Shown here piece by piece: positions 48,519 to 51,163 of a stretch of 64,000 bases of DNA. Every line of letters starts with the position of its first letter. Within the stretch, counting starts at the first letter, position 1. This DNA comes from Halovenus aranensis. Lineage in GTDB: Archaea; Halobacteriota; Halobacteria; Halobacteriales; Haloarculaceae. Position numbers and translations under genes: made by a program. The stretch spans positions 1 to 64,000 of the forward strand of contig NZ_FNFC01000011.1 in NCBI RefSeq assembly GCF_900100385.1. Direction: 5' to 3'. Under the pieces are notes generated by a model. It was given only the letters and a program-made list of their open reading frames with translations, was not told the origin of the DNA and did not search any database.

Positions 48519-49388
48519 TCATGAGGAGAGGCGGTCAGTGTACCGACCGGCAGCGGCAAAGAGTGCTCTGCCTTTCTGTGTTATCAGGCTCTGCTCGTCG
48601 GACTCTGGGGCGAGGTATGCCCCAGTCCAGACGCTCCCGATGCCGAGGAGTGTCCCCGCGAACACGTCGACACCCCAGTGAAGTCCGAGATACATCGTCG
48701 AGAAGGCAATAGTCACGGCCATGGTCGCGGCCACGTAGAACCAGCGGGGGTAGCTATCGCGGGTGTACCACGCGAGTAGCGCGACCGTAACCGCAAGCGA
48801 CGTGTGAAGCGACGGGAAGACGTTCGCGTTCGTATTGATGTGTGTCGTCAACTGTTCTATCTCCGGCCAGACCTCGTACATGAGCCCTCGGACCTGTCCC
48901 GGCATGTAGTTTCGCGGCCCGTAGGCGACAAAGAGCGTGTAGCTACAGAGGCCGGTAGTGTAGTTGATAACGTACGCGAGCACCGCAACGCGCAACGGGC
49001 GAAGTGTATCCAGAAACGCGTACGCGACGAGCGGGAACAACAGCAGGAACACGTACCCGAAGACGTACACGAGCGAGAGAATCCAGGTTAGCTCCGTCGT
49101 CGCGAGCGTCTGTATCGTCGGAACGAGCGTGCCCTCGATACTGTAGAGCGTGTGTGTGATGTTGTAGCCGACGGTCCAAGAGAGTTCACCGCCGATAGGT
49201 CGCCAATACATGCCGAATCCGAACACGAAGCCGAGAACCATCAGATGTGGCAGGCTATCCCGAACGCGGCTGCGGTACTCCTCGCGGACGCGCTGGACGC
49301 GCTCTCGCCCCACGACAGTGTAGATGCCGATACCGAGACAGACAGTGACGACCGCCGCAAGTTGGAGGTAGTGAACGAGGAGGCTCAT
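48519..49388 (-). CDS. PAP2-family membrane phosphatase/transferase
   Basis: The 289-residue protein has six membrane helices and the two C-terminal motifs of PAP2/inositol-phosphotransferase enzymes: NVFPSLHTSLAV near residue 190 and MYLGLHWGVDVFAG near 235. The first motif is degenerate (AYGPRNYMPG). Relatives act as lipid phosphatases or as transferases that move phosphorylated head groups, and are seen in archaeal lipid metabolism. Its ATG overlaps the stop of a substrate-binding lipoprotein gene (ATGA), so it is the second gene of that operon. Confidence 0.85.
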   Translation of the reverse strand: MSLLVHYLQLAAVVTVCLGIGIYTVVGRERVQRVREEYRSRVRDSLPHLMVLGFVFGFGMYWRPIGGELSWTVGYNITHTLYSIEGTLVPTIQTLATTELTWILSLVYVFGYVFLLLFPLVAYAFLDTLRPLRVAVLAYVINYTTGLCSYTLFVAYGPRNYMPGQVRGLMYEVWPEIEQLTTHINTNANVFPSLHTSLAVTVALLAWYTRDSYPRWFYVAATMAVTIAFSTMYLGLHWGVDVFAGTLLGIGSVWTGAYLAPESDEQSLITQKGRALFAAAGRYTDRLSS

Positions 49389-51163
49389 TGTTCGAGTAAC
49401 TCGCCGCTGTCAGAGAACTCGAAGCCGGCGTCTCGCAGGTACGTCTGGATGGCCGCCGTATCGAGGTCGCCGTCGGTCCCAAAGAAGGGGACCTCAGGGT
49501 CGCCGTCGTCCCACTGCAGGTCCGAGGGGACCCAGCCGGTCCCCGCCAGTGGACTCACCGCCGGACGAGCGAACCCGCCGAGTATCTCGCTTCGAACGGC
49601 CTCTTTGTCGATGAGTCGCGCAACGAGCCGCCTGAAGTGTGGGTTTCCAAGCGGCGAGCGGGCCGTGTTACAGCCGACCATATACAGCGCCGAGGACTGT
49701 TCGACGTTGAGGTCGACCGCAGGCTCGCGCCCTGCACGGGGGACGACCGATGGGTTCAGATTCGACAACGTGGCGTCGACCTCGCGGTCGGTCAAGAGTC
49801 CGAGCGCAGCGTCGTCTGAGCGGACAATCCGTATCCGCACCCGTTCGAAGTCGAAGGCGCCGAAGGCATCGGGAAACGCCTCTGGGGTCTGGTGTACGGG
49901 ATGGCTGTCGTTTCGTGTCAAAACGAGTTCCTCGTCCTCGGCGAGAGAATCGAACTGGAGCGGCCCACTCCCGACCGGGTCGAGGTTCTCTCGAACCAGC
50001 GCGTCGGTGACCGACTCAGAGATGTCGACGCCCGCGATATCGACTGCTTTCGACGCCGACTCCCACTCCTGTCTCGGGAGTATCGGCAGTGTGAGGGCTC
50101 GAACGGCCGTCTGAGGGTTCGCATCGGAGAACCGCAACTCGACGGTCCGGTCGTCTATCGCGGTCACGTCCTCGATGAGAGACGTTCGACCGCGGAACCG
50201 GGGAGCGGGGACCGGGACCTCGAACTCGCTGAGGCTCGTATCCGAGAGGAACTCGACGGCGAACACAACATCCTCGGCCGTGAGCGGCGTCCCGTCGTGG
50301 AACTCGACGCCGGGTCGCAGGGACGCAGTGATAACGGTGTCGCCGTTGGCCGTCGAGACATCCCAGTTTGCGGCCGCCCACGGCCGCACCGTCTGTCTGT
50401 CGTACCGTCCCAGCGAGTCATAGAGGAGGTCGATTATCTGGTGTCCGCTCGGGTACTCGATAGCGATGGGATTCAGGTTCTGTGTGAGGCGGCCGTCCGT
50501 CGAAACCAGTCCGAGCGTGTCCCCCGACGCGTCGGTCCGTTCGAGAGTCGCGAGTGTCCGCGCCAGGTCGGTAGTCATCGTTTCCCACCCGGTGAATCGC
50601 TCGCCGCGTGAGACCTGAATCGCATCGGGGACGGCGACCGGAACGAACGGCTGGTTTTTGACGATCTCACGCTGGAGTTCAGTGACGGTCTCCCGTCGCT
50701 GTGGGCCAGTCTGTGAGCGCTGGGCTTCGAGCAGTTCGTCGATGGTGATGTCGGTCATCTCGAAGGGATTTTGCCACCCGGGCTCGCGGACGAACTCGGA
50801 GTGCAACAGCGGTCGGAGGGCGTCTGGACTCTCGATGTTCGGGTGTGCACAGACGAACAGATCGTACTCCTGGTCGATGAGAACCGTCCGCCGAAGTTCG
50901 TCTTCGGGATAGAGCGTCAGGTCGACCTCGACACCGACGGTTTCGAGGTTCTCCGCGAGTCGCCGGCCAATCTGTGTCGCGACGGGGTCGGCGTCGCCTG
51001 GCAGCGTGACGACTTCGAGCGCGAGTTGGCCCGGGAGTTTCTGGCTGCGCGCCGTCCGAAATCGTCCGAGACAGCCCGCAGCCCCGACGGCCCCGGCAGC
51101 GAAAGACGTAAGTACTGCCCGGCGTCGGACAGTCTCGTTTGCCCCGTTCTGGCCCCCACTCAT
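49385..51163 (-). CDS. Family 5 substrate-binding lipoprotein with apparently permuted domain order
   Basis: The 592-residue protein has a Tat signal (RRRAVLTSFAAGAVGAAGC) with a lipobox Cys31, so it should be folded before export and anchored outside. The rest matches extracellular solute-binding proteins of family 5, but the order is changed. Residues about 44-210 resemble the usual C-terminal part (RRLAENLETVGVEVDL, YDLFVCA, FVPVAVP). Residues about 220-592 start with the usual N-terminal part (YPSGHQIIDLLYDSLGRYD, LRPGVEFHDGTPLTAEDV) and end with LRDAGFEF. No permease or ATPase gene is adjacent. Ligand unknown. Confidence 0.85.
   Translation of the reverse strand: MSGGQNGANETVRRRAVLTSFAAGAVGAAGCLGRFRTARSQKLPGQLALEVVTLPGDADPVATQIGRRLAENLETVGVEVDLTLYPEDELRRTVLIDQEYDLFVCAHPNIESPDALRPLLHSEFVREPGWQNPFEMTDITIDELLEAQRSQTGPQRRETVTELQREIVKNQPFVPVAVPDAIQVSRGERFTGWETMTTDLARTLATLERTDASGDTLGLVSTDGRLTQNLNPIAIEYPSGHQIIDLLYDSLGRYDRQTVRPWAAANWDVSTANGDTVITASLRPGVEFHDGTPLTAEDVVFAVEFLSDTSLSEFEVPVPAPRFRGRTSLIEDVTAIDDRTVELRFSDANPQTAVRALTLPILPRQEWESASKAVDIAGVDISESVTDALVRENLDPVGSGPLQFDSLAEDEELVLTRNDSHPVHQTPEAFPDAFGAFDFERVRIRIVRSDDAALGLLTDREVDATLSNLNPSVVPRAGREPAVDLNVEQSSALYMVGCNTARSPLGNPHFRRLVARLIDKEAVRSEILGGFARPAVSPLAGTGWVPSDLQWDDGDPEVPFFGTDGDLDTAAIQTYLRDAGFEFSDSGELLEQ

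Follow-up and report, generated by a model that had tools for sequence, protein, structure and literature searches.

Predicted circular permutation of haloarchaeal family 5 solute-binding lipoproteins and the pairing of their genes with a PAP2-family phosphatase gene

A 592-aa lipoprotein encoded in the window, by which we mean the whole 64,000-nucleotide stretch of Halovenus aranensis DNA analysed here, is almost certainly a solute-binding protein (SBP) of family 5 (SBP_bac_5, cluster C) that has undergone a true circular permutation; members of this family capture peptides for uptake. Comparison with its relatives confirmed, as far as sequence can, that it belongs to a family of naturally rearranged solute-binding proteins, comprising two subfamilies designated type A and type B, in which the two halves have exchanged places in the gene. 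The window protein is of type A, and a gene for a PAP2-family membrane phosphatase lies directly downstream of its gene. The best overall explanation, which we regard as likely, is that the permuted protein is a functional binding protein and that type A has been recruited to a PAP2 enzyme acting at the outer face of the membrane.

Order of the two segments

The gene is a single open frame with an ATG start. The initial annotation had proposed a Tat lipoprotein signal with Cys31 and had quoted several motifs from the protein; RRR and Cys31 are present in the 592-aa ORF, and the motifs lie at about the positions given for them. R14, R15, G30 and C31 are invariant in an alignment of 37 haloarchaeal relatives, and from the twin arginines and Cys31 the window SBP is predicted to be an exported lipoprotein. 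The features are listed in Table 1.

Table 1. Features of the window and of the related permease loci (coordinates refer to the window unless a locus is named)
Feature	Position	Strand	Basis or remark
Type A SBP_bac_5 lipoprotein gene, circularly permuted by prediction	49385..51163	(-)	592 aa; PF00496 and profile matches
Tat-type lipoprotein signal, residues 1-31, RR at 14-15, lipobox Cys31	51071..51163	(-)	sequence
N segment, residues ~45-199, the C-terminal part in family 5 proteins of usual order	50567..51031	(-)	profile and Pfam matches
Linker from old C terminus to old N terminus, residues ~200-214	50522..50566	(-)	alignment, hhalign boundaries
C segment, residues ~215-588, the N-terminal and middle part in family 5 proteins of usual order	49400..50521	(-)	Pfam, hhalign
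PAP2-family membrane phosphatase gene (PF14378 PAP2_3)	48519..49388	(-)	conserved partner, directly downstream of SBP
DppB-like and DppC-like pair, convergent	L049:2582-4863 (G099)		adjoins type A gene
DppB-like and DppC-like pair, convergent	L171:7686-9997 (window genome C15:55778-57972)		without binding protein alongside

PF00496 matched residues 259-585 of the window protein at model positions 2-282 of 368 (E 2e-41), with 143 bits against a curated cut-off of 32.4 bits. Since the match stops at model position 282, the end of the model is missing where it would be expected, after residue 585. The window's own N segment alone falls below the sensitivity of Pfam; across the family, 29 of 37 N segments matched PF00496 and no other Pfam family. 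When the segments were aligned separately and inspected singly, the relatives' N segments fell on model positions 289-366 and the C segments, including that of the window protein, on 2-282. The same swapped positions appeared at loci of several genomes in whole-genome Pfam searches, and each of the five other SBP5 genes of the window genome gave one normal-order stretch on PF00496. TY-Chap3 was considered as a family for the N segment and set aside (E 0.06, below the cut-off); the 37 N segments matched PF00496 only.

Proteins in the PDB gave the same picture. In phmmer searches against PDB chains, residues 230-544 aligned with 44-344 of 6ofq and residues 72-196 with 394-519, and residues 45-194 aligned with 362-508 of 4wed. 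A profile search placed residues 231-584 on AppA (1xoc) 36-345 and residues 45-188 on AppA 358-498, and a profile of the N segment matched the C-terminal parts of proteins among 42 PDB sequences, best AppA 370-498 (E 3e-13). When a profile of 37 permuted relatives was compared by hhalign with one of 33 canonical haloarchaeal SBP5 paralogues, columns 219-588 aligned with canonical columns 90-419 (E 9e-50) and columns 48-198 with 420-566 (E 6e-13). The two segments thus abut at 419/420 on the canonical alignment, without overlap or loss, and both domain halves are present. As judged from these alignments, the swapped-order matches are far beyond chance; the usual collinear order of the SBP_bac_5 halves was not found in the window protein, and its first segment belongs to the same family as the second, not to another. 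The initial annotation had argued for a permutation and not a fusion, and the swapped order, the abutting halves and the canonical proteins that both halves resemble most closely (see below) agree with it. Its two-segment layout also stood, while its segment ends at residues 210 and 220 required correction to ~198 and ~215 with a linker (~199-214) between them, which is variable in length in the 37-sequence alignment.

The new ends map between AppA 345 and 358, a position that, by the domain limits of OppA, would lie in domain III. With the new ends in domain III, the protein would be tethered by its lipid through the other lobe than is usual. One ancestral circular permutation would have connected the former termini by a short linker and placed the new termini inside the second lobe, in the loop that follows the helix ending in AGY or AGF, and the product would still fold as a two-lobed clamp that binds its ligand outside the membrane. 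Searches for a solved structure with the permuted order found none, and the phmmer hits of type B in the PDB all aligned best with its second part only. An AlphaFold prediction of the window protein, made from a two-sequence alignment with one relative, had a pLDDT of 32 and a pTM of 0.25, a confidence too low for structural comparison.

Gene neighbourhoods of type A and type B

The two subfamilies, which are ~26% identical, stand in different gene contexts. Type B, mostly 540-660 aa, was found in haloarchaea and Alphaproteobacteria, where it heads complete Dpp-type operons, mostly with two permeases and two ATPases. Because of this position, type B probably still serves ABC import, feeding Dpp-type importers in what would be the ordinary way. 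Type B operons (L144, L145, L154, L155) often adjoin genes for M28 or M20 peptidases, hydantoinase/oxoprolinase, creatininase or racemase, hinting at amide or cyclic-peptide-like substrates.

Beside type A, Dpp/Opp permease and ATPase genes were absent in the window and at nearly all type A loci, and the constant partner is the PAP2 gene, which the initial annotation had not picked up. In the window its start codon overlaps the SBP stop codon (ATGA), and its product matches PF14378 with E 5e-16. PAP2 lies directly downstream on the same strand for 81 of 86 SBP hits in the family, mostly with 0-63 bases between the matches. Among 146 genomes of the family, which are related, so that the counts are not independent, 81 have both SBP and PAP2, 2 have SBP only, none has PAP2 only and 63 have neither; one of the two SBP-only genomes holds a contig-end fragment and the other a type B gene. 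A Fisher value for these counts takes no account of relatedness and is given no weight. The wider neighbourhoods of type A differ between genomes, which indicates that the pairing is not simple synteny, and the recurrent neighbour clusters besides PAP2 mostly resembled overlapping or antisense ORFs or had no Pfam match. Some extra copies of type A occur without PAP2, namely the second copies at L060 and L082 and those at L073 and L074. In one haloarchaeal family (L060, L061, L077, L082), tandem type A genes have PAP2 between them. One type A SBP (L084:5052-7073, minus strand) carries a long T/N-rich low-complexity insert of NTTNKTNTT repeats in its C segment.

The PAP2 proteins retain the PSLH and H...D residues in 36 of 36 sequences. 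Hydropathy and the positive-inside rule predict that the loops bearing the catalytic residues face outward. Motif 3 reads TM.....H...D, and the classical C3 motif SR.....H...D was not found. On plasmids of Haladaptatus and Haloferax gibbonsii (L147, L148), the SBP-PAP2 pair lies near genes for an aryl-sulfotransferase and a phosphoglucosamine mutase, in what are perhaps surface-polysaccharide clusters.

This genetic linkage makes a functional partnership of type A with PAP2 somewhat probable. Lipid-anchored via the opposite lobe from normal, type A would be a surface receptor for PAP2, either passing on a ligand, phosphorylated or lipid-linked, to the active site that faces outward, or controlling the enzyme. 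Ligand hand-over as the mechanism is a tentative proposal. The broader reading, of a widespread haloarchaeal two-gene surface system in which a permuted SBP was recruited from ABC import as the substrate receptor of PAP2, is plausible, if just short of probable.

Two other accounts of type A deserve consideration. First, and as the main alternative, type A could be an ordinary ABC receptor for an unlinked Dpp-type permease, with PAP2 merely co-transcribed. ABC genes clearly accompany type B; in G099, a Halovenus relative, the type A gene (locus L049) is immediately preceded by DppC-like and DppB-like genes, and the orthologues of this permease pair in the window genome have no binding protein alongside. 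However, several type A genomes (G073, G015, G001, G065) lack the pair at E<=1e-20, relatives of the pair occur in some genomes without type A (G120, G062), and PAP2 is the only constant neighbour of type A; we consider this account unlikely. A linkage of type A to the orphan Dpp permease pair was unsupported by presence and absence across 21 genomes. Similar oppositely oriented permease pairs occur at L173, L174 and L175.

Second, the permuted SBP could have given up ligand binding and become a subunit of the PAP2 enzyme with a structural or regulatory role, as might be suggested by the strict pairing, by the lost ABC linkage and by the long branch of the type A clade, which has a motif of its own, GWQNPFG. 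Yet the core motifs (HDG, GSG and a DPD-type loop) are conserved in type A, and such conservation would usually mean that binding is kept. We regard the subunit account as quite improbable and function as a binding protein, putative as it is, as probably retained.

Distribution and origin of the permuted family

The initial annotation had suggested looking for the same order in other haloarchaea, and it is widespread there and found in bacteria as well. Relatives are present in 83 of 146 genomes of the family and full-length relatives are spread across Halobacteria; at E<=1e-15, matches were obtained in 277 of 391 genomes of the class, the weakest of which may be other SBP5s. The bacterial matches, from a search that covered plasmids, are alphaproteobacterial type B proteins (Nitratireductor, Roseomonas, Ketogulonicigenium, Neorhizobium, Maritalea), and by inspection their signal peptides are without a lipobox Cys. 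Among archaea of the same phylum outside Halobacteria, the matches listed cover only the second part of type B, as ordinary proteins do, and a scan of viral contigs for further relatives found none. The annotated records consulted for these proteins read only "ABC transporter substrate-binding protein". Of 26 scanned proteins, two of them type A, 25 have the N segment ahead of the C segment in one frame; in the remaining one (Neorhizobium, L146) the frame is broken and two genes are annotated.

When 89 SBP5s were placed in a tree, the 45 permuted rows all fell on one side of a single branch; its SH-aLRT support was 90 with both segments and 89 when the C segment was used alone. This placement fits a single origin of the permutation, for which the tree is not strong proof.

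Segment shuffling that fused two truncated SBP5 genes from separate sources would be a different route to the same layout. SBP5 paralogues and tandem pairs are numerous in haloarchaea, and any tandem-duplication route to a permutation itself passes via fused copies. Against a fusion, the halves are exactly complementary with zero overlap, the junction is common to both types, and the same canonical proteins (Cytobacillus, Meiothermus, L162) rank high for either half of type B (Spearman 0.64), a shared ranking that favours permutation over the joining of unrelated halves. We consider such a fusion very unlikely. Tandem SBP genes can mimic the permuted order in translated searches, as is probably the case at H115, but an annotation or assembly artefact (a frameshift, misjoined contigs or two neighbouring genes) is refuted by independent full-length homologues, the permuted ORFs being uninterrupted, with a signal peptide, in numerous independent genomes and collections, with identities from 76 to about 26%, and in named complete records.

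Relation to known systems

The permuted and normal forms occur side by side in one genome, and within the permuted family some members carry a lipid anchor and others do not, just as some have ABC partners and others have none. This variety makes it testable whether an anchor on the other lobe alters the docking of a receptor. That type A is so strictly paired with PAP2 suggests a partnership at the surface of archaeal cells that has not been described. Our searches of open-access full text turned up neither a permuted family 5 protein nor the haloarchaeal PAP2 pairing, and the only natural permuted SBP found was TpMglB-2.

Like the family 5/cluster C proteins (PF00496: AppA, DppA, OppA, NikA), the permuted proteins are exported by prediction, their two segments are homologous to that family and jointly cover it, and type B lies in Dpp-type operons. 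They differ in having the halves swapped, with the new ends at AppA ~345/358, and in that type A is without adjoining ABC genes. The partner enzyme resembles the PAP2 superfamily, in which its weak nearest solved relatives are YodM/PgpB and LpxE, in the invariant PSLH and H..D residues and in its predicted outward orientation. It differs in having TM in motif 3 where the classical consensus has SR, and in the strict pairing of the haloarchaeal PAP2 with a solute-binding protein gene. We know of no described PAP2 enzyme with such a pairing.

TpMglB-2 (Tp0684) is a naturally circularly permuted solute-binding lipoprotein, for which a "cluster Bc / type Ic" was proposed; it retains binding and an ABC partner, and its topology is family-wide (PMC4990184). 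The proteins described here are likewise natural permutations, by prediction, of a solute-binding lipoprotein with a family-wide topology. They differ in that TpMglB-2 belongs to cluster B, in the sugar-binding MglB family, which is another SBP family; homology to MglB-type sugar-binding proteins was not found for the present proteins, and the significant PDB and Pfam matches listed were all to family 5. The authors of the TpMglB-2 study suggested that permutation may suit membrane tethering (PMC4990184). That the alphaproteobacterial type B proteins found here are without a lipobox Cys argues against tethering as the general cause of the permutation.
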